NCBI GenBank assembly: GCA_007121385.1
Contig: SKLV01000053.1
Span: 1-33,514, forward strand
Reading direction: 5' to 3'
From: Bdellovibrionales bacterium
Lineage (GTDB): Bacteria; Bdellovibrionota; Bdellovibrionia; Bdellovibrionales; UBA1609
DNA length: 33,514 bases
Position 1 is the first letter of the stretch, and each line of letters starts with the position of its first letter. The translations under genes and the position numbers were made by a program. The notes under the pieces were generated by a model. That model worked only from the letters and a program-made list of their open reading frames with translations. It did no database searches and was not told the DNA's origin. Of this stretch, positions 5,065 through 22,928 are shown piece after piece.

Positions 5065-5140
5065 GCGGGAGTAGCTCAGTTGATAGAGCGTCGCCTTGCC
5101 AAGGCGAAGGTCGCGGGTTTGAGCCCCGTCTCCCGCTCCA
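5065..5140 (+). tRNA. tRNA-Gly (anticodon GCC)
   Basis: A complete 76-base cloverleaf. The acceptor arms GCGGGAG (5065-5071) and CTCCCGC (5130-5136) pair fully, the discriminator base is T, and CCA (5138-5140) is encoded. The D arm is GCTC/GAGC. The anticodon stem TCGCC/GGCGA encloses the loop TTGCCAA with anticodon GCC at 5098-5100, reading GGC and GGU. The T arm is GCGGG/CCCGT. No intron or insertion is seen. No convincing terminator hairpin follows before the convergent lipoprotein gene, whose stop is 58 bases away. Confidence 0.97.
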
Positions 5141-9992: not shown

Positions 9993-10021
9993 TTGGGTCA
10001 TTTTAAAAAAGGGGGATGACT

Positions 10022-11428
10022 GTGAACCGGGGGATATTGCTGGGGCTTATTTTATGGGGTGTGGGAGCCCAGGCCAATGTGGTGGGTGTGGACACACAAA
10101 ACTTTAACCCCACCACCAATGGTTTGGACTTTGTCACTGTTCACTCCTCTCAAGTTTTAGATCCGGGAATTTTCAACTTAGGCCTGTTTTTAAATTTTGC
10201 AGTCAATACCCTGCCTCAGTACGAAACTCAGAGCTCGCGCACGGACTTCTCCGATGTCCTGTTGTCCTCCGATGTGAATTTTGGGGTGGGACTAATGCGC
10301 AACTGGGATATTGGCTTCAGTTTTCCCGCGGTGATCTACCAAAATGTCAGTTCCAATATTGAGGGATCTCGTACCGAATTTTCGCAGATCGGATTTACCG
10401 AGGTCAGAGCCAACACCAAATATCGCTTTTGGCGCAACTCTCGGGAGACCACGGGAGTGGCCGGGGTTCTTTCCACCAATTTAAACTTAATTCGCAACAA
10501 TCCATTTATTGGAGAAAACGCTGGCCCCACCCTCAATATTGAGTTGGCCCTGGATCACCGTTTGGCCAGTGGCTGGGTCCTTGGATTTAATACGGGCCGG
10601 CGCTTTCGTCAGCCTGGCGACGCCATTGAAGAGGTTCCTGTGGTTCCCCTTCCGGACCAGTGGTTGGCCTCTGTGGCTGCGAGTTATATGATCAGTCGCT
10701 GGGACAGCAAGTTGATTATGGAGCTTTTTTCGGCCATTCCCGCCCGCAGCCAGTCTGAAAGTACTGATCGCGAACTGTCCACCGCGGAAATTCTCGTGGG
10801 GATGAAGAAAGACCTACGCCATGACATCGCCCTTCACTATGGAGCGGGGACTCGGGTGCTCAAAGGAACGGCCTCAGCAGACTGGAGAGTCTATACAGGA
10901 TTGAATTGGGCTATGGGTCCTCTCTGGGGCCGGGGTTCAGCCCGACAAGAGGACTCTGTCATTGTGAGGCGGCCCATATCTCCGCCGGCTGATGAGGCCA
11001 AGCCTTGGTCGCAGGAGGTTCGCTCTCAGCCTATTGATATAGGCCCTCAGGGAGACCCCTTTGTGGGTAAGCCTCAGGCGGCTCAGGAGGCCTTTGTGGC
11101 CCGAGACATCCTCTTCCGCTTTAATTCTGAAGAGCTGGATCCTCGGTTCACTCCCTATCTGGAGCGTATGCTCACCTATCTGAACCAGGGAGATGGCTAT
11201 AAGTCTCTGGTTATTGAGGGGCATACGGATTCAGTGGGCTCACCTCAGTACAATATGGCCTTAAGTTTGCGTCGAGCCCAAAATGTGAGAAACGAATTGA
11301 TCCGCCTCGGGGGGGATCCGCAGCGGATTCGGGCGGTGGGTAAGGGCCAGAATGAGCCCGTGGCCGATAACTCCAGCTACCAGGGCCGCGCCCTCAACCG
11401 CCGGGTGGAGTTTAAGGTGCAGTGGTAG
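10022..11428 (+). CDS. outer-membrane beta-barrel protein with C-terminal OmpA domain
   Basis: A 468-residue envelope protein. A signal peptide (GILLGLILWGVGAQA) precedes a region of about 290 residues with alternating strands typical of an outer-membrane barrel. A linker rich in Pro, Gln and Glu follows, then an OmpA-like peptidoglycan-binding domain over the last 110 residues. Its markers are DILFRFNSEELDP, the binding loop EGHTDSVGSPQYN, LSLRRAQNVRNEL and the terminal GRALNRRVEF. The role is probably to tether the outer membrane to peptidoglycan, and the barrel may also be a channel. The GTG at 10022 is chosen over the ATG at 10016 because AAAGGGGG directly abuts the ATG and is correctly spaced only for the GTG. 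The 3' end overlaps the convergent lipoprotein gene by 17 bases. Confidence 0.85.
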   Translation: MNRGILLGLILWGVGAQANVVGVDTQNFNPTTNGLDFVTVHSSQVLDPGIFNLGLFLNFAVNTLPQYETQSSRTDFSDVLLSSDVNFGVGLMRNWDIGFSFPAVIYQNVSSNIEGSRTEFSQIGFTEVRANTKYRFWRNSRETTGVAGVLSTNLNLIRNNPFIGENAGPTLNIELALDHRLASGWVLGFNTGRRFRQPGDAIEEVPVVPLPDQWLASVAASYMISRWDSKLIMELFSAIPARSQSESTDRELSTAEILVGMKKDLRHDIALHYGAGTRVLKGTASADWRVYTGLNWAMGPLWGRGSARQEDSVIVRRPISPPADEAKPWSQEVRSQPIDIGPQGDPFVGKPQAAQEAFVARDILFRFNSEELDPRFTPYLERMLTYLNQGDGYKSLVIEGHTDSVGSPQYNMALSLRRAQNVRNELIRLGGDPQRIRAVGKGQNEPVADNSSYQGRALNRRVEFKVQW

Positions 11429-13244
11429 CAAGAGAGTATCTCAGTCTGAGGCTGGCTCCGGGGATCTGAGCCAGCTCATTCATAGCCCGATCAGAAACCA
11501 AGATGTACTTGATATGCCCCTGTTGAGTTTGGAAAACAAGATCCTTGGCATTGAGGTTTCCTGTGTGAACTCCATTTTCCAGGATCTCCACTTGGAAGCT
11601 GCTCTCATCCACCAGCCCCAAGTGATCATCAAAGATCTGGAAGCGGTTATTGAGTCGCAACCTAAGGTCTGCGACTTGACCCAAAATGGCCAAACTCTGA
11701 TTGTACTGTCCATCTCCCAGCTCAATAGCCTGGCCTTGGGCTAGAGAAATCACCTCTAAGTAACCTCGGCCCACTTTTGAGGAGTCAACTTGCGAATTTC
11801 CTGGAGTGTGGAGAATTCCTGAGACGATCAGGGGGCGCTCTCCCACACGGCCTTTCAAAACATCGTAAACCATTTGTGGACTCAGATGCTGGTGCAGAGT
11901 TTCAGCTCTCTCATTCATCACCGGTTGGCGGCGCCCATAGGCATCGAATCCACTATAGGTTCCCACCACGCAGTACTGGGACTTGTGATTCACTTGGGGG
12001 GCAGGAAGAACATTGGGGGCATAGAAGACCTTAGGCAGGCTGTCGATCTCTTCGGCATAGCAGGCGTCTTGAGAGTCAGCGACAAAGATCACCGCTAGGG
12101 CCGCATTGGCGCGGAAGAAGCCGTAGTCATCATGGTTCTTCTTAAAGCGGTGGGGGTTTGTCAGGGCCTGATAGAGGCTGAAAAGACCCATATCTCCATG
12201 ACCCAGAGACTGGTCTCGTCCTTGAGAGGGAATCATATTAATTTTGGCGTTCAGGCGGCGCTGAATCTCAGTGAGGACTTGCTCGTCATTCATCCCTTGG
12301 CGTTTGAGGTCGGCGCTACGCAGGACAAAGTCGTCCCTTAGGCCCTGACTGTTTTGGCCGGTGTACTTAAACAGTTGAGCATGGGTGGGGCGATCATTTC
12401 TGGCATCGGGACCATTGGCTAATAGGACTCCCACATTGTAGTCCAAATACTCTTCTCGCCCGCTCCTGAGAACTCGGGGCAATTGGCGCACAAAAGAGTT
12501 CATTTGGCTGAGAATAGCTTGGCGCTGGGAGTCCATGGAGCTGGAGCTGTTGACCACAAAGAGGATGTCCAGCTGCTGAGTGCGTAGCTCTCGATCCAGG
12601 GGCCTTTCCACCACTTGCGGGGGGCGGGGAGTGACCACGGGGGGAGGAGCTGGTGTGGGTTGAGGTTTGGGGGTAGGTCTCACCGGAGGGGCCTCCACCA
12701 CAGGAGGAGGGGTGACAATAATGGGCTCCAGTTCAACCGGTGGGGGAGCGGGCACCTCTACACAGGGCTCGGGCTGAACAGGGCGCGGTGCAGGAGTCGT
12801 GGGTCGTACCTGCCTTTCCCCATGGCAAACAGAAAGGATATCCGGAGAGCGAATGTCGGTATCAAACCAAGTGACCACTCGTGGAGGCAGAGTGGGACCG
12901 CTGGGCACCGCAGTCGGAGGGGTCACCACCACCGGAGGGCGAGCTGGAGTTGTCGGCTGAGGCGGGGTCACCTCAATAATTTCTACGGGAGGAGGAGTAG
13001 GCCTCGGTCCCGTTGGAGGAGCGCCGGGGCCTATGGGGCCAACCGGGCGCGGTTCTGGAGAAGGCACAAGAACTGGGCTTTCTGAGCCCTCATCGGGTTC
13101 TGGTTGAAGGGCCTGACCCTCTTCTTGCTGTCTCTGAGTCTCTTGGATATGGGAGAACTCTGCCTGACTACAGGCGGTGAGGCCTAAAGCTAAACTCCAG
13201 CTCATTAAGATCATTGTGCCTTGGGGCCATTGAATAGGTTTCAT
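11412..13244 (-). CDS. proline-rich lipoprotein with a von Willebrand factor A-like domain
   Basis: A 610-residue exported protein. The ATG is preceded by GAGGAGAGG. A signal sequence ends in the lipobox LTAC with Cys25. Residues about 45-215 are dominated by Pro, Val and Thr and probably form an extended stalk; two Cys near the middle may form a disulfide. From about residue 218 a von Willebrand A-like fold begins (QLDILFVVNSSSSMDSQRQAIL). The first metal-site Asp of D-x-S-x-S is Asn here. Later LAVIFVADSQDACYAEE matches the second core strand of bacterial members. The family is associated with adhesion or protein assembly at the surface; the exact partner is unknown. A metal-independent role is possible given the Asn. 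Confidence 0.8.
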   Translation of the reverse strand: MKPIQWPQGTMILMSWSLALGLTACSQAEFSHIQETQRQQEEGQALQPEPDEGSESPVLVPSPEPRPVGPIGPGAPPTGPRPTPPPVEIIEVTPPQPTTPARPPVVVTPPTAVPSGPTLPPRVVTWFDTDIRSPDILSVCHGERQVRPTTPAPRPVQPEPCVEVPAPPPVELEPIIVTPPPVVEAPPVRPTPKPQPTPAPPPVVTPRPPQVVERPLDRELRTQQLDILFVVNSSSSMDSQRQAILSQMNSFVRQLPRVLRSGREEYLDYNVGVLLANGPDARNDRPTHAQLFKYTGQNSQGLRDDFVLRSADLKRQGMNDEQVLTEIQRRLNAKINMIPSQGRDQSLGHGDMGLFSLYQALTNPHRFKKNHDDYGFFRANAALAVIFVADSQDACYAEEIDSLPKVFYAPNVLPAPQVNHKSQYCVVGTYSGFDAYGRRQPVMNERAETLHQHLSPQMVYDVLKGRVGERPLIVSGILHTPGNSQVDSSKVGRGYLEVISLAQGQAIELGDGQYNQSLAILGQVADLRLRLNNRFQIFDDHLGLVDESSFQVEILENGVHTGNLNAKDLVFQTQQGHIKYILVSDRAMNELAQIPGASLRLRYSLATTAP

Positions 13245-13938: not shown

Positions 13939-14398
13939 TGGACGCCGTCCGAAATCACGATCCCAGTCCGCCTCAGAGGACTTTGACTTGACCGACCCTG
14001 AGCAGGGGGCCTCTGAAGAGGGGGTCAAGGTCCTTAAATTGTCAGAGGCCCTTAAAAAGGTGGTGGCTGCTGGTTTAGGGGCCGCCTTTATGACTGAAGA
14101 GCACATTCGTGCTCAGTTGAGTGAGGTCAAGCTACCTAAAGAAGTCCTAAATATGCTGTTGGCCAATGCGAGCAAATCCAAGGAAGAACTGGTAAAGAGG
14201 ATTGGCAACGAGGCGGTGAAGATGATCTCGAAGGTCGACTTTGTTAAAGAGGCCTCTCGCTTTGTGGAAGAGCATAAGTTTCGTGTTCAGGCAGAGATTG
14301 AGGTTATTAAGAAGGATGGGGCTTCCTCCCATTCCGAACAGGAAGCCTCAAGGGGTGAGTCTGAGTCCAAAAACTTCAGCCCACCCAGACAGTCCTGA
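13928..14398 (+). CDS. small helical protein of unknown function
   Basis: A 156-residue protein with an ATG inside the previous gene and AGGAA upstream. The first 35 residues and the last 25 are charged, Ser-rich and probably disordered. The core (residues about 38-130) is amphipathic helix: LSEALKKVVAAGLGAAFM, LPKEVLNMLLANASKSKEEL and FVKEASRFVEEHKFRVQAEIEV. There is no signal peptide. The regular Lys/Glu helices loosely recall polymer-granule phasins, but I see no decisive motif and do not claim that. Pairing with the SRPBCC gene suggests a joint role. The last 17 codons are antisense to the end of the leucine-rich-repeat gene. Confidence 0.7.
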   Translation: MENDGRRPKSRSQSASEDFDLTDPEQGASEEGVKVLKLSEALKKVVAAGLGAAFMTEEHIRAQLSEVKLPKEVLNMLLANASKSKEELVKRIGNEAVKMISKVDFVKEASRFVEEHKFRVQAEIEVIKKDGASSHSEQEASRGESESKNFSPPRQS

Positions 14399-15619
14399 TT
14401 GAGTTCGGGACAGGCTCTCAATGGGGTTCTGGTGCAAAGAAACTTTTTCTAGCTGGGATGAAAAAGCAAAGGCCTGATTGCCCACAGTGCTCACTTGATT
14501 TTTTTCCAGATTGACCTCTCTAAGAGAGTCAAGGCCCTCAAAGTAGAATCCTTCTAGATGTTCGATTTGATTTTGCCCCAGCTCCAGCTTTCTTAAAGAG
14601 TCCAGGCCCCAAAAGGCCCCTGGAATAAAGTCAGAAAGATGGTTCCCGTCAAGATGCAGGTTGAGAAGAGAATAGAGGCCGGCAAAGGCCCCCTGCTCAA
14701 TCCACTCGATTTGATTATTGGAGAGCCTTAAGCTGATAAAAGCTGTGGTGGAGTTGAGTCCTATAAATGTGTCGGCCCTCAGCTGTTGAATGAGGTTGTC
14801 AGACAGATTCAAAACGCTCAATTGATTGAGCTCCAAAAAAGTCCCAGACAGAATCTCACTGATCAGGTTGGCTGAGGCATTGAGGCTGGAGAGTTGGCTG
14901 AGGCCCTGGAGCATTCCTGGACAGAGGAAAGTGAGTTCATTGTCGGAGAGGTCCAGTCGAAGAAGGCGGTCAAGGCCCCTGAAAGACTGGGGTTGAATAT
15001 GGCGAATGTGGTTCTTTTGCAGATTGAGTACCCTTAGTAAACTTAAAGAGGCAAAGTTGTCTTTTTCCAGTTCTTGCAGCCAGTTTCCAGAGAGATCGAG
15101 TTCCTGCAGTCGATCTAAACTCTTAAAAGTCTGGGGATTCACCTTAAGCAGCCGGTTGTCGGTGAGCTTAAGGCTATGAACCCGGTCAAGGCCAAGAAAT
15201 ACTCCCCCCTCAAGTCTTTCAAGGGGTTGGCGAGAAATCTCTAAGAAGTGAAGGGCCGGCAAGCCTTTAAAGGCTCCGGGCTGGATCTGCTTAAGACCAT
15301 TTCCCACTAGGTGAATTCTTCTGAGGCTTTTCATGCCTGCAAAAGCCTTTGGAGGCAGGTTTTCCAGCTGGTGGCGGGGCGAAATGGTGAGAATGGAGAG
15401 GTTCTCGTAATCTTGTCTGGAAATCCGGTCACAGGAGTGACGAAGTTGATCGGCTAGAACCTGCCCGATGGGTCCGCGGTCGCAGACATTGATGGTCTCA
15501 GACCGCTCCAGTGAGTGGGTCAGGGGCATCCAACAGCTGCCAATGAGAATTCCCGCCGCACAAAGTGTCCTATGAAAAGCCTGAGCCCAGCAGGTTAAAG
15601 AGTCTAGCGATCCCCTCAT
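14348..15619 (-). CDS. secreted leucine-rich-repeat protein
   Basis: A 423-residue protein starting at the ATG at 15619, which has GAGGGGG upstream and a promoter ending just before it; a longer frame to 15694 would begin upstream of that promoter. A signal peptide covers about residues 1-36. A short Cys-containing cap (INVCDRGPIG..., HSCDRIS) is followed by 13 or 14 tandem repeats of about 24 residues of the typical form LxxLxLxxNxLxxLxxxxFxGLxx, for example LQELDLSGNWLQELEKDNFASLSL. One repeat carries three extra residues (GLNSTTA). Repeats of this typical subfamily are common in eukaryotic extracellular proteins and build protein-binding solenoids. A role in binding another cell or a surface protein is inference. 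Confidence 0.88.
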   Translation of the reverse strand: MRGSLDSLTCWAQAFHRTLCAAGILIGSCWMPLTHSLERSETINVCDRGPIGQVLADQLRHSCDRISRQDYENLSILTISPRHQLENLPPKAFAGMKSLRRIHLVGNGLKQIQPGAFKGLPALHFLEISRQPLERLEGGVFLGLDRVHSLKLTDNRLLKVNPQTFKSLDRLQELDLSGNWLQELEKDNFASLSLLRVLNLQKNHIRHIQPQSFRGLDRLLRLDLSDNELTFLCPGMLQGLSQLSSLNASANLISEILSGTFLELNQLSVLNLSDNLIQQLRADTFIGLNSTTAFISLRLSNNQIEWIEQGAFAGLYSLLNLHLDGNHLSDFIPGAFWGLDSLRKLELGQNQIEHLEGFYFEGLDSLREVNLEKNQVSTVGNQAFAFSSQLEKVSLHQNPIESLSRTQSGLSGWAEVFGLRLTP

Positions 15620-15635
15620 CGCAACCCCCTCAATA

Positions 15636-15663
15636 ATTAAAGTGTTTCCCCCGAAACGCTCAA
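15636..15663 (-). promoter_or_regulatory. candidate promoter for the leucine-rich-repeat gene
   Basis: On the minus strand TTGAGC (15663-15658) and TTTAAT (15641-15636, five of six consensus) are 16 bases apart. Transcription would begin about ten bases before the GAGGGGG ribosome site. This supports the start codon at 15619 rather than the one at 15694. Confidence 0.42.
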
Positions 15664-15702
15664 AAAAGCTCTCATAGACGAGTGAGTTTTGCAAATTGTT
15701 TA

Positions 15703-15751: not shown

Positions 15752-16405
15752 TTAGGGACTCTTAACTTTTACCCTAAGCTCTGCTTCCAGAAGTAAGCCG
15801 AGGTCGGCGCGGTCAATGCCTTGAGCCTTCGTTGATTGTCGTTCGTTGCTGTAGTGTCGACTGTTCAAAAATCTGTGTGGAGGAATGGGCGAGGACACGG
15901 AACTCTCTTTCATGTACTGCTCAATAAAGCCAAAAAAGTTTTTCTGTTGAACTGGAAGGGTCTTGAGGCCCGCACTGAGGTAGGTGAGAAATCTCCACAG
16001 TCGAGGGTCTCGACCAGGAGAGTGGAGCTCCACCTGAGCCATTTCTTCAAGCTGTTGAATCAGAAAGCTTTGGACAGGGAAGGTTTGGGGGAAGCCAACC
16101 AGGCGAACCGCTAACCTTTGTAAGAACTCTTGGCGCAACAAGTGCTCTTCCAGCTCCTGTGCTAAAAACAGGTTCAACTCAGTGTGGACTCCATCCGAAT
16201 GGGCCGCTCGCTGCTCCTGGAGCTCAATAAGGCGCCGTTCGTTCTCCTGGAGGAGCTCTCGGGCGAAGGACAGAGGGGGGCTTGAAGTCCAGGCTTGCGG
16301 TGCGCTGAGGGAGTCGGGGCTAAAGAAAACGCACAGGGCCATAAGCTGTTTGATCAGCAGATAGCTCCAATGGTTGTTGATCAAAGTGAGCGGAGAATGC
16401 CTCAT
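15752..16405 (-). CDS. exported protein of unknown function
   Basis: A 217-residue protein with a strong AGGAGG eight bases before its ATG. Residues about 15-35 (YLLIKQLMALCVFFSPDSLSA) look like a signal peptide with a long polar start. The mature part is mainly helical and rich in Glu, Gln and Leu: FARELLQENERRLIELQEQRAA, LFLAQELEEHLLRQEFLQRLAVRLVG. A Ser-rich basic stretch lies near 170-195. I recognise no domain. It has its own likely terminator before the leucine-rich-repeat gene, so the two are probably separate units. Confidence 0.68.
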   Translation of the reverse strand: MRHSPLTLINNHWSYLLIKQLMALCVFFSPDSLSAPQAWTSSPPLSFARELLQENERRLIELQEQRAAHSDGVHTELNLFLAQELEEHLLRQEFLQRLAVRLVGFPQTFPVQSFLIQQLEEMAQVELHSPGRDPRLWRFLTYLSAGLKTLPVQQKNFFGFIEQYMKESSVSSPIPPHRFLNSRHYSNERQSTKAQGIDRADLGLLLEAELRVKVKSP

Positions 16406-16664: not shown

Positions 16665-16688
16665 GAGGTCAAAGTTTGAGGGGGAAAC

Positions 16689-17255
16689 ATGAAGAATAGA
16701 GACAGGATTGGATTTAATTTTCTATGGGTTCTCGGCCTTGCAGGTCTGCTAACAGCTTTATCTTCGCTTCAAGGTCAGGCCGGGGTGGAGACTCAGATCT
16801 CAGCCACAGTGACCTGTTTTTTGGGGGGCTGCCTGCAGGAGGGTTGGCAGATTATTGACCATAGGCGGGGCCAGGTCTCCGAGGTGCGCTGCTTGGGCCG
16901 GAGCTGTGAAGAGGATGGCTGGTTTCATCAGGTTGTCGGAGGGCGAGCCGATCACTTTACTCAGTGTTTAGGTCGAGGTTGTTTTTTAGATGGCTGGCAA
17001 ATTTTTGATTTTGCCGCAAACCAATTGCAAGGAGAGGCTCATTGCCGGGTTCCAGTCGAGGAGGGGGAGGCCGAATGTCTTCGGGCTGGATGGGATGTTT
17101 ATAACCAGGTGGGTCAAATCTCGCACCGAGTGACCTGTGTGGGAGGAGATTGCCGAGAGCGAGGTTGGGATGTACAGGTAGTGGGCTATGGATTCCAAAG
17201 TGTCCGCTGTCAGTCGGGCGGCTGTTTTGAAAAGGGGTGGACTCTTAGACCTTGA
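16689..17255 (+). CDS. secreted protein built of six C-x4-C-x3-G-W repeats
   Basis: A 188-residue protein with GAGGGGG before the ATG and a signal peptide ending near QGQAG (residues 28-32). The mature part is six tandem units of about 25 residues, each with two Cys and an invariant Gly-Trp: Cys43/48-Trp53, Cys68/73-Trp78, Cys93/98-Trp103, Cys119/130-Trp135, Cys150/155-Trp160 and Cys174/179-Trp184. Unit four has a ten-residue, acidic insertion between its Cys. The twelve Cys suggest one disulfide per repeat in an oxidising compartment. I do not recognise the family. The last 68 bases overlap the longest tilS frame. Confidence 0.78.
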   Translation: MKNRDRIGFNFLWVLGLAGLLTALSSLQGQAGVETQISATVTCFLGGCLQEGWQIIDHRRGQVSEVRCLGRSCEEDGWFHQVVGGRADHFTQCLGRGCFLDGWQIFDFAANQLQGEAHCRVPVEEGEAECLRAGWDVYNQVGQISHRVTCVGGDCRERGWDVQVVGYGFQSVRCQSGGCFEKGWTLRP

Positions 17256-18264
17256 GCACCAGCTTCTAAAACAGCTCCGCGCTCTTTTTCCATCTTTGGC
17301 CCAGGCCAGGCCGGACTCTTTGCCCCCTCTGATGGTGGCTGTCTCTGGGGGTTTGGACTCCGTCGTCTTGCTCCATGCCTTAAGTCGGCTGAAATGTGTC
17401 CTATCACTGGCTGTTGCCCATGTTCACCATGGACCCAGCTCCCAGCCCCAAGTTCAGCTCTACCGAGACGAAGCTCAATCTTTTACAAGGGATCTCGCGT
17501 TAAATTATCAATGGCCGTTTTGGACCACAGGAAGGCAAGAGGCTGGGAGTAAAGAGGGGGATGCGAGCGCCTCTGAGGAGCTCAAGAGTGAGGCCAGTTT
17601 ACGTCGTTTTCGTTACGAGCAGTTGAGAGGCTGGGCTCAGCAGTGGCAAAAAGATTTGGGGGCGGAGTCGCCGGTGCTGATCGTGCTGGCCCACCATCTT
17701 GAGGATCTTCTGGAAACACGGCTGATTCGGCTGATTCGGGGTACCGGCTCTCGGGGTTTGGCTTCCATGGAGGTTTTAAAAGGAGATTTACTGCGCCCTC
17801 TACTGTCCATTTCGCGCAGTCAGCTTTTGCCTTACGCTCAGGCTCAAGGCCTCAGGTGGCTTGAGGACCCCTCCAATCAGCAGTTAAGCCCATTTCGTAA
17901 CTGGATGCGTCATGAGTGGCTTCCTCAGCTGGAAGCTCGGCGTCCAGGAGGCCTGAGATCTCTCGGTCGATCTCTGGATCAGCTGGCCTCTCTCAGCCAG
18001 TCAGCCAGGGGAGGTCTTGCCTGGTCAGCCTTTTTCACGGACCAGGGTCTTCGCAGAGTGCTTTTTGACTCGTTGCCTTATGAGTTCCGTTCAACAGTTT
18101 TAGTCGAGTTATTGGGGCGGCAAGGAGTCTCCTTCTTCACCTCGGCCCAGGTGGAGGAGGTCTCTAAGCTGTTATGGAGCCCAAAGAAATCTTTTACCTT
18201 TGAGATGTTAGGTTTGAAGTGGTCGGTCAGCCCAGACTGGATTTACGCCCACTCGCAAAAGTGA
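17188..18264 (+). CDS. tilS: tRNA(Ile)-lysidine synthase
   Basis: Converts C34 of the tRNA-Ile(CAU) anticodon to lysidine using ATP and lysine, so that the tRNA reads AUA. The PP-loop motif SGGLDS is at residues 53-58. AHHLEDLLETRLIRLIRGTGSRGL near 167-190 and the motif LEDPSNQ...RNWMRHEWLPQL follow the TilS pattern. At 358 residues it is shorter than the E. coli enzyme and has a reduced C-terminal region. The start is uncertain: ATG 17188 overlaps the previous gene by 68 bases with a poor ribosome site, and GTG 17200 or TTG 17227 are also possible. It is placed ahead of ftsH, an order known in several bacteria. Confidence 0.9.
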   Translation: MDSKVSAVSRAAVLKRGGLLDLEHQLLKQLRALFPSLAQARPDSLPPLMVAVSGGLDSVVLLHALSRLKCVLSLAVAHVHHGPSSQPQVQLYRDEAQSFTRDLALNYQWPFWTTGRQEAGSKEGDASASEELKSEASLRRFRYEQLRGWAQQWQKDLGAESPVLIVLAHHLEDLLETRLIRLIRGTGSRGLASMEVLKGDLLRPLLSISRSQLLPYAQAQGLRWLEDPSNQQLSPFRNWMRHEWLPQLEARRPGGLRSLGRSLDQLASLSQSARGGLAWSAFFTDQGLRRVLFDSLPYEFRSTVLVELLGRQGVSFFTSAQVEEVSKLLWSPKKSFTFEMLGLKWSVSPDWIYAHSQK

Positions 18265-18334
18265 ATCCCGTTGAGGTTAGGGGTCTCAGCGTGGTAGTCT
18301 CAAAAAGGCCTCACGTGGAGAAAGGAAGTCATTG

Positions 18335-20332
18335 ATGCGCTCTTCGCAAAAAACCCTGCTCATTTGGGCAATCCTGATTGTGACCGGTATTATGTTTTTT
18401 CAGATGTACGACACCAGTCGGCTGAACTTTGCTCAGGACTTTGATTATCCCAAGTTTATTGCAGCCCTGGACGAGGGCTTGGTGAAGTCGGTCACCTTTA
18501 ACCAGGACACTCGAGAGATCCAGGGTCAGTTCACTCCTGAAGGCGAGGAGCGATTTGGAGCTCCTGAGTTCAAAACAGTGGGGAATGTGGATGCTGAGGG
18601 CTATCGTGAGGTCAAAGACCGAGGAATAGTGCCCAACTATATCAAGTCTGACAACTCCCTGTTGACCTCCATGTTTATCAACTGGCTGCCCCTGATTATT
18701 ATTATCGCTCTGTTTATCTTTTTTATGCGTCAGCTACAGGTGGGCGGAGGCAAGGCCATGGCCTTTGGCAAGAGCCGGGCTCGCCTTCTCACTGAAAATA
18801 AGAACCGGGTGACTTTTAAGGATGTGGCTGGGGTGGATGAGGCCAAAGAGGATCTCACAGAGATTGTGGCTTTCCTCAAGGACCCCAAAAAGTTCACTCG
18901 GTTGGGTGGCCGAATCCCTAAGGGAGTTCTTCTTGTGGGTCCGCCGGGAACAGGAAAGACTCTTTTGGCCAGAGCGGTGGCGGGAGAGGCCAGCGTTCCA
19001 TTTTTCACTATTTCGGGTTCCGACTTCGTGGAAATGTTTGTGGGGGTGGGGGCCAGTCGTGTGAGAGACCTCTTTGAGCAGGGGAAAAAGAATGCCCCTT
19101 GTTTAATCTTTATTGACGAGATCGATGCTGTTGGTCGTCACCGAGGAGCCGGAATGGGTGGCGGTCACGACGAGAGAGAGCAGACGCTAAACCAGCTTTT
19201 GGTGGAGATGGATGGCTTTGAAAGCAATGATGGAGTGATTTTAATTGCCGCCACCAATCGCCCTGATGTTTTAGATCCGGCGCTGTTAAGGCCAGGGCGC
19301 TTTGATCGTCGAGTGATTGTCAACAAGCCAGATTTAAAGGGGCGGCTGCACATCTTAAAGGTTCACGCGCGTAAGACTCCACTGGCGCCGGATGTGAACC
19401 TAGACAATATTGCCAAAGGAACTCCCGGTTTTTCCGGAGCGGATCTGGAGAACTTGGTGAATGAAGCCGCTCTTCAAGCGGCTCGCAGCAATAAGCTGCG
19501 CTTGGAGATGGAGGACTTTGAGAAGGCCAAGGATAAAGTGATCATGGGGTCGGAGAGAAAATCTATGGTGATCTCCGAAAAAGATAAAAAAATCACAGCC
19601 TATCATGAGGCAGGTCATGCCATTGTGGGACGAAAGATGCCCATGATTGACCCTATTCACAAGGTCACCATTATTCCGCGGGGAATGGCTTTAGGCTTAA
19701 CCCAGACCCTGCCTGAAGAAGACAGTCTCAATCTCTCAAAAAATAAGGCTCACAGCATGATTGCCTTTATGTTTGGAGGGCGAGCCGCTGAGGAGCTGAT
19801 TTTTGAGGACTACACCACGGGTGCTGGAAATGATATCGAGAGGGCGACGGAGCTGGCCCGCCGTATGGTCTGTGAGTGGGGGATGAGTGAAAAGTTGGGT
19901 CCTTTGGCCTTGGAAAAAAGAGAGGGTCCGGTCTTTTTAGGCATGCAAAACACTCAGAGTCGAGACTACTCCGACGCCAAGGCCGAGGAAATTGATAAGG
20001 AGGTCTACAGCTTTGTGATGCGAGGCTATGATGAAGCCAAACAAATCCTTAAAAATAATATGGATGTGCTTCATCGTATGTCAGAGGCTCTTTTGGAGTA
20101 TGAAACGATTGATGCCGACGAGGTGAATTTGTTAATTGAAGGCGGCACTTTGGAGCAGCTCCGAACTCGTCGAGAAAGTTTACAGGAAAAGATTGATAAA
20201 GATCGCAAAGCCGCAGAAGAGGAAGAGCGTCTTAGGCTCGAGAAAGAAAAGGCTGAAAAAGAGGCTCGAGCCAAGGCCAAGTCAGGCAAAGGCGGCTCAG
20301 GTGATCCCGTGGGTGATCCCGTTACAGCTTAG
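18335..20332 (+). CDS. ftsH: membrane-anchored ATP-dependent zinc metalloprotease FtsH
   Basis: Degrades membrane and regulatory proteins as a hexamer at the inner membrane. Two N-terminal transmembrane segments (residues about 7-23 and 110-130) flank a periplasmic domain. The AAA module has Walker A GPPGTGKT (about 202-209), Walker [12 protein letters not shown] (near 258) and the second region of homology [20 protein letters not shown]. The zinc site HEAGH is at 424-428. The tail is unusually Lys/Glu-rich, ends in [10 protein letters not shown] encoded by a short direct repeat, and may be disordered. ATG 18335 is chosen over TTG 18332 because AAAGGAAG is six bases before it. The cdaA gene follows after 25 bases. 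Confidence 0.97.
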
Positions 20333-20357: not shown

Positions 20358-21161
20358 TTGCTGCAAGCTCTTAACGAGACATTTAACGGGCTGGCTCTCC
20401 ACTTCCGTCCCCAGGATCTGCTGGACCTCTTTCTGGTTTGGTTGGTGGTCTACAGGGTCCTTCTTTTGACTCGACGGACAGGGGCTGTCCAGATCCTGTC
20501 CGGCATGGGTGTGCTGGCCATTGCCTATATTCTCAGTATCTGGTTAGAGTTGGTGACCTTTCACTGGCTCTTGGAAAAGTTTTTTTCCAATTTGTTTTTA
20601 ATCGTCGTGATTCTCTTTCAGGCAGAAATTCGTCGCGCCCTTGCTCAGATTGGAACTAACCCCTTTTTCACAGGCATATCTACAGTGGAGGAGACCCACC
20701 TGATTGAGGAGTTGGCTAAGGGAGCTGTTCAGTTGGCGCAAAAGGGTTATGGGGCTCTTATTGTCATAGAGAGAGAGATCGTCTTAGATTACTTTTTAGA
20801 GGAGGGGACAGAGGTGCAAGGCCGGATCAGCGCCGAGCTTTTGAACTCCCTGTTTCTACCATCCAGTCCCCTTCACGATGGGGCCGTGGTCATTCGTGGG
20901 GGGCGTATTCACTCGGCTGGTTGCTTCTTGCCGCTGAGTAAGAACCCCAGCTTGGATAAAAATTTGGGCACTCGGCATCGTGCAGCTGTAGGTTTAACTG
21001 AGGAGACAGATGCTTTTGTTTTAGTGGTGTCAGAGGAGAGTCACTCGGTGAGTATTGCCACAGGCGGGCAATTGATTTTTGATGTGGACCACGCCACAAT
21101 TCGGCAACACCTGTACGAGATCTACGGACTCACTTTTAGGGGTCCAGAGAGGAGCCGCTGA
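20358..21161 (+). CDS. cdaA: diadenylate cyclase CdaA (c-di-AMP synthase)
   Basis: Condenses two ATP to cyclic di-AMP. Three hydrophobic segments in the first 85 residues (DLFLVWLVVYRVLL, ILSGMGVLAIAYILSI, FSNLFLIVVILF) anchor it. The DAC catalytic domain follows, with DGA at about 173-175 in LHDGAVVIRGGRIHSAGC and RHR in GTRHRAAVGL near 204-210, both intact. The 267-residue length is typical of CdaA. The start is a TTG preceded by GGGGTGGGG. The stop overlaps the cdaR start by one base (TGATG). The cdaA-cdaR-glmM order is the classical Firmicutes cluster, in which GlmM and CdaR modulate the cyclase, and similar control is inferred here. Confidence 0.94.
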   Translation: MLQALNETFNGLALHFRPQDLLDLFLVWLVVYRVLLLTRRTGAVQILSGMGVLAIAYILSIWLELVTFHWLLEKFFSNLFLIVVILFQAEIRRALAQIGTNPFFTGISTVEETHLIEELAKGAVQLAQKGYGALIVIEREIVLDYFLEEGTEVQGRISAELLNSLFLPSSPLHDGAVVIRGGRIHSAGCFLPLSKNPSLDKNLGTRHRAAVGLTEETDAFVLVVSEESHSVSIATGGQLIFDVDHATIRQHLYEIYGLTFRGPERSR

Positions 21162-21565
21162 TGACTTGGCCTCAGTGGATCAGGGAGAGGGTTTTTGATA
21201 ATTTGTCCTATAAGCTTGTGGCCCTATTTGTGACTTTGATTCTTTGGGTGACCATGCTGGGTCGCAAGGAGATCGTGACCGAGTTTGACTTGCCCATTCA
21301 ATTTCTCACAAGTAGTACTCAAGTTTTATTTGGTGAGCCCTCGAATCAATGGGGAAGAGTTAAGCTTATTGGTGTGAGGAGTTCAGTGCGGCAATTTCAT
21401 CGCCGAGATGAGGCTCTTATTGTGGATCTGAGTCGTCTAGGATATGGAGATCACCGGGTCCGACTCACCAAAGAGGCTTTGGATTTGCCCTTGGGGTTGA
21501 GGTTGATCAGTATTGATCCGGAGGAAATAGATGTTCGGCTTGAAGCAAGACTGGATGGAGAATGA
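21161..21565 (+). CDS. cdaR: YbbR-domain protein, minimal CdaR
   Basis: A 134-residue protein with an N-terminal transmembrane helix (LSYKLVALFVTLILWVTMLG, about 15-34) and one YbbR domain facing outward: EFDLPIQFL, then VKLIGVRSSVRQF, ALIVDLSRLGYGDHRVRLTKEAL and LRLISIDPEEIDVRLE. Firmicute CdaR proteins carry several YbbR domains and regulate CdaA; this one has a single copy. It starts on the last base of cdaA and ends four bases before glmM, so it is certainly cotranscribed. The regulatory role is inferred from its position. Confidence 0.88.
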   Translation: MTWPQWIRERVFDNLSYKLVALFVTLILWVTMLGRKEIVTEFDLPIQFLTSSTQVLFGEPSNQWGRVKLIGVRSSVRQFHRRDEALIVDLSRLGYGDHRVRLTKEALDLPLGLRLISIDPEEIDVRLEARLDGE

Positions 21566-21569
21566 GAAA

Positions 21570-22928
21570 ATGAGGCTATTTGGCACTGATGGCATTCGTG
21601 GGACAGCTAATCGATTCCCCATGACTCCCGATGTGGTCCTTAAAGTGGGGCAGGCCATGGGTTATTTGTTGCGGAAGATGCAGAAGCCCAAAGGGGCCCA
21701 GCGCATGGTTTTAATTGGGAAAGACACTCGCCTTTCTGGATATATGCTAGAGCAAGCTCTATCCAGTGGGCTGAACTCCATGGGGATTAATGTCAATCTC
21801 ACTGGCCCTCTGCCTACGCCGGGAATTGGCTTTTTAGCCCGCAATATGAGGGCCGATGCGGGAATTGTTATCTCGGCCTCTCACAACGCTTTTTATGACA
21901 ATGGGATTAAGATTTTTGGGGCTGATGGCTTTAAGATTCCTGATTCCATGGAGAGAGAGATTGAGCGCTTGGTGAATGAAGTGGATTTGAATACTCTGTT
22001 GGCAGACTCCCGTCAGATCGGTCGAAGTCGCCGTATCGATGATGCAGCAGGAAGGTATATTGTCTATGTGAAGAACACATTCCCTTTAGAGCTATCACTA
22101 GAGGGCTTGCGCATTGTTCTCGACTGCGCCAATGGAGCCAGTTACCTGGCAGCCCCTGCCATTTTTGGTGAGTTGGGGGCAGAGGTCATTGTGCTTGGAG
22201 ATGAGCCCAATGGCTTCAATATTAACGATAAGGTGGGGGCACTTTATCCTGCCAAGACAGTCGAAGCCGTTTTGCAGTACCGGGCCGACTTGGGCATCAC
22301 TTTAGATGGAGATGCGGATCGAGTCATTATGGTGGACGAAAAGGGCGGCGTGGTGAATGGGGATCATATTTTGGCCATCTGCGCCGCCCACCTGGCCAAG
22401 AACAACCGCTTGGCTGGAAACACAGTTGTGGCCACGCAAATGAGTAATTTTGGTCTGGATCAGGCTCTGCAAAAGTTAGGAGTGCAATTGGTTCGCACAG
22501 ATGTGGGGGACAAGCACGTGGTGGAGTCCATGCGTCGCAATGGTTATAACTTAGGCGGGGAGCAGTCAGGGCATATAATTCACTTGGATCACAGCACCAC
22601 AGGCGATGGCTGTGTGGCAGCCTTGAATGTATTGGCTGTAATGCGCTCCGAGGGCAAGCCTCTCAGTGAGCTCAAGGAGATGATGGAGGATATGCCCCAG
22701 GTTCTGATCAACACTCGAGTCTCTCAGCGCAAGGACTTGACAGAAATTCCCGGCTATCAAAGTCTATTGGAAAAAATTGTTGGCGAATTGGGGCAAGAGG
22801 GACGCACTTTTGTCCGCTACTCAGGCACTGAGCCGGTGATCCGCGTTTTGGTGGAGGGCCGGGATAAGAAAAAAATTGGCCAATTTGCGGAAGAGATTGC
22901 AGGGCTCCTACAAAAAGAACTGAGTTAA
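21570..22928 (+). CDS. glmM: phosphoglucosamine mutase
   Basis: Interconverts glucosamine-6-phosphate and glucosamine-1-phosphate on the route to UDP-GlcNAc for peptidoglycan and lipopolysaccharide. The 452-residue length is normal. The opening MRLFGTDGIRG is typical. The phosphoserine loop is ISASHNAFYDNGIK, with Ser104 as the expected phosphorylated residue. The metal loop DGDADR lies near 246-251, the sugar loop is GEQSGHII and the phosphate loop is RYSGTEPVIRV. GGAG nine bases before ATG 21570 supports this start; ATG 21555 would add five residues. In Firmicutes GlmM binds and inhibits CdaA, and the adjacency here makes that link possible. Confidence 0.95.
   Translation: MRLFGTDGIRGTANRFPMTPDVVLKVGQAMGYLLRKMQKPKGAQRMVLIGKDTRLSGYMLEQALSSGLNSMGINVNLTGPLPTPGIGFLARNMRADAGIVISASHNAFYDNGIKIFGADGFKIPDSMEREIERLVNEVDLNTLLADSRQIGRSRRIDDAAGRYIVYVKNTFPLELSLEGLRIVLDCANGASYLAAPAIFGELGAEVIVLGDEPNGFNINDKVGALYPAKTVEAVLQYRADLGITLDGDADRVIMVDEKGGVVNGDHILAICAAHLAKNNRLAGNTVVATQMSNFGLDQALQKLGVQLVRTDVGDKHVVESMRRNGYNLGGEQSGHIIHLDHSTTGDGCVAALNVLAVMRSEGKPLSELKEMMEDMPQVLINTRVSQRKDLTEIPGYQSLLEKIVGELGQEGRTFVRYSGTEPVIRVLVEGRDKKKIGQFAEEIAGLLQKELS

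Follow-up and report, generated by a model that had tools for sequence, protein, structure and literature searches.

The window, which is the whole 33,514-nucleotide stretch of DNA analysed here, carries a gene for a small, predicted secreted protein built of six cysteine-containing units (the hexarepeat protein). Downstream of it lie tilS and four genes that we take, from knowledge of their families, to be ftsH, cdaA, cdaR and glmM. The ribosome-binding site and signal peptide in the following list were read from the DNA and protein sequence.

16678-16684, plus strand: ribosome-binding site, GAGGGGG
16689-17255, plus strand: gene of the secreted hexarepeat protein, product of 188 amino acids (open reading frame call; conserved family)
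16689-16781, plus strand: Sec signal peptide, with probable cleavage near GQA (residue 31)
16806-16817, plus strand: N-terminal half-unit (TVTC), modelled as strand 8-12 and named A1, with putative pairing to B6
16815-16847, plus strand: unit 1, CFLGGCLQEGW
16890-16922, plus strand: unit 2, CLGRSCEEDGW
16965-16997, plus strand: unit 3, CLGRGCFLDGW
17043-17093, plus strand: unit 4, with acidic insertion, CRVPVEEGEAECLRAGW
17136-17168, plus strand: unit 5, CVGGDCRERGW
17208-17240, plus strand: unit 6, CQSGGCFEKGW
17235-17252, plus strand: C-terminal half-unit (GWTLRP), with which the protein ends, modelled as strand 152-156 and named B6
17188-18264, plus strand: tilS, tRNA-Ile lysidine synthase of the PP-loop type (Pfam PF01171, 6.6e-34; conserved adjacency; true start uncertain)
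18332-20332, plus strand: ftsH (open reading frame; next in the conserved cluster, cluster c2 in 11 loci)
20358-22928, plus strand: cdaA (DisA_N type), cdaR (YbbR type) and glmM (open reading frames; clusters c3-c5)

The purine-rich GAGGGGG ends 4 bases before the ATG, and similar purine-rich sites precede most of the homologous open reading frames. The signal peptide has no lipobox Cys, and the homologues have AxA-like sites immediately ahead of their first strand. The mature protein consists of the six units and nothing else. All 12 of its Cys lie inside the units (residues 43, 48, 68, 73, 93, 98, 119, 130, 150, 155, 174 and 179), and a Gly-Trp is found in each (residues 52, 77, 102, 134, 159 and 183). 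The pattern C-x4-C-x3-G-W is strict in five units, while unit 4 reads C-x10-C, with RVPVEEGEAE between its Cys. The period of the units is 25 residues except around unit 4, and approximately 14 residues separate each Trp from the next Cys. When the mature sequence was shuffled 200,000 times, no more than 4 units were found, as compared to the 6 observed. The earlier note had described six such units with a period near 25 residues, two Cys and a Gly-Trp in each, and an acidic insertion between the Cys of one of them, and this description was borne out throughout. Its view of the product as secreted, compact, repetitive and disulfide-rich is likewise supported.

Range of the family and gene neighbourhood

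Of the 47 genomes that make up the same bacterial family here, 12 gave relatives in a protein search, at 26-57% identity. In a profile search of the phylum, 24 of 369 genomes were matched, or about 23 after the removal of a spurious match in genome G054 (E 6e-4, locus L033), which was discarded because its frame lacks the repeat. Those carriers that have names are uncultured Bdellovibrionales metagenome-assembled genomes (MAGs). A narrow contig scan yielded four MAG loci and clearly missed many members, sampling beyond the phylum being thin; a search of viral contigs, plasmids and phages gave no relatives. Neither single proteins nor a profile gave a sequence match in Pfam, NCBIfam, PHROGs or the PDB, in keeping with the remark of the earlier note that the protein was of no recognised type.

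Conservation within the family is strict. An alignment of 14 members showed no variation in the 12 Cys or in the Gly of any unit, and the Trp was invariant in five units out of six; homologues keep the Gly-Trp of nearly every unit. Exactly six units were present in all 27 distinct full-length members; the three members with fewer units were all cut by the end of a contig or locus. The tail after the last Gly-Trp measured 3-7 residues in 26 of these 27. The insertion in unit 4 is common in this bacterial family and absent from most distant members, the surface loops vary between members, and some genomes carry paralogues. These results show that the gene is real and conserved, and that it belongs to an uncatalogued family in the Bdellovibrio phylum.

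Several variants were also observed. In longer paralogues (loci L037, L038 and L017), a helical, coiled-coil-like insertion lies between units 5 and 6 and Tyr or Phe often replaces Trp, the number of units still being six; two of these paralogues stand in tandem in one genome. In a distant bacterial family (L039-L044), unit 5 of every member seen keeps both Cys and has Gly-Gly instead of Gly-Trp.

The repeat gene was located directly upstream of tilS in 12 loci (one with two small open reading frames between them), including one locus from another family (L066) and one from another order (L076). The order that follows is tilS, ftsH and then, on contigs that extend far enough, cdaA, cdaR and glmM. 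In the window, the repeat gene shares its 3' end with the tilS open frame, and so it does in 9 of the 12 loci when that frame is taken from the first possible tilS start. Approximately half of the carriers lack this adjacency, and more distantly related carriers in the phylum have the gene elsewhere. Distances between hexarepeat proteins correlated with those between the corresponding TilS proteins (Spearman 0.72, Mantel p 0.0002), as expected under vertical inheritance with later losses. No diverged copy upstream of tilS was seen in the genomes examined that lack the gene; in these, the place before tilS is taken by a START-like (SRPBCC) gene or by other genes.

In the window the repeat gene is adjoined on the minus strand by a gene for a secreted-looking leucine-rich repeat protein (14348-15694; LRR_8, 8.8e-70), which is shared only with a sister genome of the same genus. 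Also on the minus strand is a divergently transcribed gene for a secreted-looking protein of 217 residues (15752-16405) with no Pfam match. Five loci have a relative of the latter close to the hexarepeat gene, suggesting that it may be a partner of the hexarepeat protein. A membrane protein of 76-91 residues is encoded upstream of the repeat gene in loci L053 (3333-3560, plus strand), L054, L056, L059 and L067; none was seen in the window. Farther away, an OmpA-type gene (10016-11428) is convergent with a minus-strand gene for a proline-rich, von Willebrand A-like protein (11412-13244; Pfam E 0.14 only), and the sole Rfam match in the window is a plus-strand tRNA gene (5065-5137; RF00005).

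Predicted fold and comparison with known barrels

Structure prediction, as proposed in the earlier note, was performed with AlphaFold2 on an alignment of five sequences and gave two confident models of a 12-strand meander, one for the window protein (mean pLDDT 90.2, pTM 0.80) and one for a homologue with 36% identity (pLDDT 92.6, pTM 0.83). In both, each Cys pair is preceded by a strand A, the Cys loop makes a short turn, and a strand B follows the Gly-Trp; in nearly every unit the second strand begins with the Trp. Neither model has a helix beyond the length of a loop turn. The chain starts on an A strand with no preceding B and ends on a B strand with no following A, so that the two unpaired terminal strands can close a ring. 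The fixed count of six units, together with these half-repeats at both ends, favors closure, and we consider it likely that the protein forms a closed six-petal ring or barrel rather than an open spiral.

Foldseek comparisons were only partly in line with this reading, and no match of either model in the PDB, or in BFVD, reached E 1e-3. The best PDB match of the first model was the tubby C-terminal-like/LURP-one-related protein 1zxu (At5g01750), a closed barrel of 12 strands (prob 1.00, TM 0.53/0.52, non-significant E-value of 0.03). The second model ranked it low, with a TM of only 0.23. The hexarepeat protein also differs from 1zxu in being exported, in having no sequence similarity to it, and in lacking, in both models, the central hydrophobic helix within the barrel. 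The de novo designed protein ZZ4 (PDB 9lx4) was a global match to both models, with a TM of 0.52 for the first and 0.50 for the second (prob 0.99), again with non-significant E-values. The literature searched on ZZ4 and on cysteine-rich secreted proteins of Bdellovibrio offered no lead. In BFVD, the matches were to giant-virus proteins (prob 1.00, TM 0.53-0.57).

A further likeness is to the beta-flower fold, which was described from predicted structures with no clear PDB match. It is a shallow, symmetric barrel whose 8, 10 or 12 strands form petals in a four-, five- or six-fold arrangement (Durairaj et al. 2023, PMC10584680). Aromatic residues at the strand edges point inward, hairpin tips carry a semiconserved [DNEQ]xxG motif, and the fold was likened to tubby-like barrels, with 1zxu named for comparison (PMC10584680). 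The hexarepeat family shares the 12 predicted strands and has six hairpin units in every full-length member. Its hairpin tips are moderately enriched in the [DNEQ]xxG motif, which was found at 40 of 97 tips; shuffles with Gly fixed gave 25.9 +/- 4.1. The excess is not independent, as the sequences are related. In contrast to the beta-flower, the hexarepeat protein has two additional Cys per petal and a cleavable signal peptide without a lipobox, and it has no C-terminal plug helix. The beta-flower families PF21784, PF21785 and PF21786 (clan CL0395) had no match in the genome at E 0.1, and hmmscan of the window protein and other members matched no Bflower model. Thus, the protein probably resembles a six-fold beta-flower, and may work like one, and we do not file it as a member of these Pfam families.

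Proposed role and alternatives

The genome gave one match to VKOR and two to the DsbA family; DsbB was searched for in the genome and was absent, VKOR being present instead. One DsbA match lies 274 bases from that of VKOR on the same contig and strand, and a 398-residue open frame was reported for both; VKOR and the adjacent DsbA are probably one fused oxidant. Because VKOR and DsbA-family proteins are encoded, an oxidising compartment is available. As far as the sequence can indicate, the export signal, the paired Cys and the oxidants expected for a disulfide-bonded exported protein are all present, and the bonds themselves are predicted.

In the explanation towards which we lean, the protein is an exported, disulfide-stapled six-fold ring that serves as a putative periplasmic binding module. 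The sequence and its conservation, the constant number of units, the 12 strands of the two models and the gene neighbourhood are shown; we infer that the ring closes, that the disulfides form and what the protein does. Sec would export the protein, which would be oxidised once outside the cytoplasm and would fold into a closed, roughly six-fold ring of 12 strands with six hairpin petals. Strand A1 (VTC) would pair with B6 (GWTLRP) to close the ring, as in six-fold beta-flowers and tubby-like barrels. On one rim, the short loop of each petal would be stapled by its C-x4-C pair, and the strand edges would carry the six conserved Trp. By analogy with tubby-like proteins, it is possible, and we propose this tentatively, that a hydrophobic ligand or an amphipathic helix is bound in the Trp-lined channel or at the rim of this rigid ring. 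The gene would be expressed together with the tilS-ftsH-cdaA-cdaR-glmM cluster.

The main rival to binding of a hydrophobic ligand or helix keeps the closed ring and makes it a multivalent secreted lectin or adhesin, whose six stapled outer loops would bind glycans of prey or matrix. Six-fold repetition, secretion, the variability of the surface loops and the paralogues in some genomes would all suit such a role, as would the setting, because the Bdellovibrio phylum includes bacterial predators. However, the housekeeping neighbours and the co-divergence with tilS are unlike those of typical fast-moving adhesins, and no lectin family was matched, and we regard a lectin as a doubtful candidate.

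An open disulfide-rich beta-solenoid, similar to MORN or choline-binding repeats, would differ in the fold itself, and it was a solenoid that the earlier note had suggested. In its favor are the tandem hairpin units with Gly-Trp and local Foldseek matches to MORN proteins, whose hairpin repeats have units of about equal size; by E-value, MORN proteins headed the list of the second model. In contrast to these local matches, global superposition on MORN structures was poor for both models (TM 0.18-0.27, rmsd above 10 A). MORN proteins are open rods that are not paired through Cys, and open solenoids usually differ in copy number, whereas the present family has the same number of units in every full-length member, half-units at its chain ends and no capping segments. 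Neither an extended rod nor a variable repeat number was found here; a solenoid is thus unsupported, and we consider it unlikely.

Binding of a metal, either zinc or an iron-sulfur cluster, by the Cys pairs in place of disulfides appears very unlikely. The C-x4-C spacing could supply two ligands per unit, but each unit has only these two Cys and no conserved His, no zinc family was matched above the cut-off, and the protein has a signal peptide for export from cells that encode oxidising machinery. A chance open reading frame or an assembly artefact, for which only the lack of a match to any annotated family would speak, is rejected with near certainty, given the phylum-wide conservation with 12 Cys kept, the shuffle test and the strong ribosome-binding site.

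A more specific form of the ring explanation can also be considered, in which a new family of stapled six-petal beta-flowers outside the cytoplasm, placed beside tilS-ftsH-cdaA-cdaR-glmM since before the orders split, would provide a putative periplasmic lipid or helix chaperone tied to envelope control by FtsH and CdaA; taken as a whole, we hold this to be quite improbable. If the exported, stapled ring is correct, a small six-unit beta-flower with no further parts would lend itself well to structural work, and its invariant number of units, together with its conserved neighbourhood, would give a way to approach the role of such rings. The protein also adds an uncatalogued family of envelope proteins to a phylum with bacterial predators.
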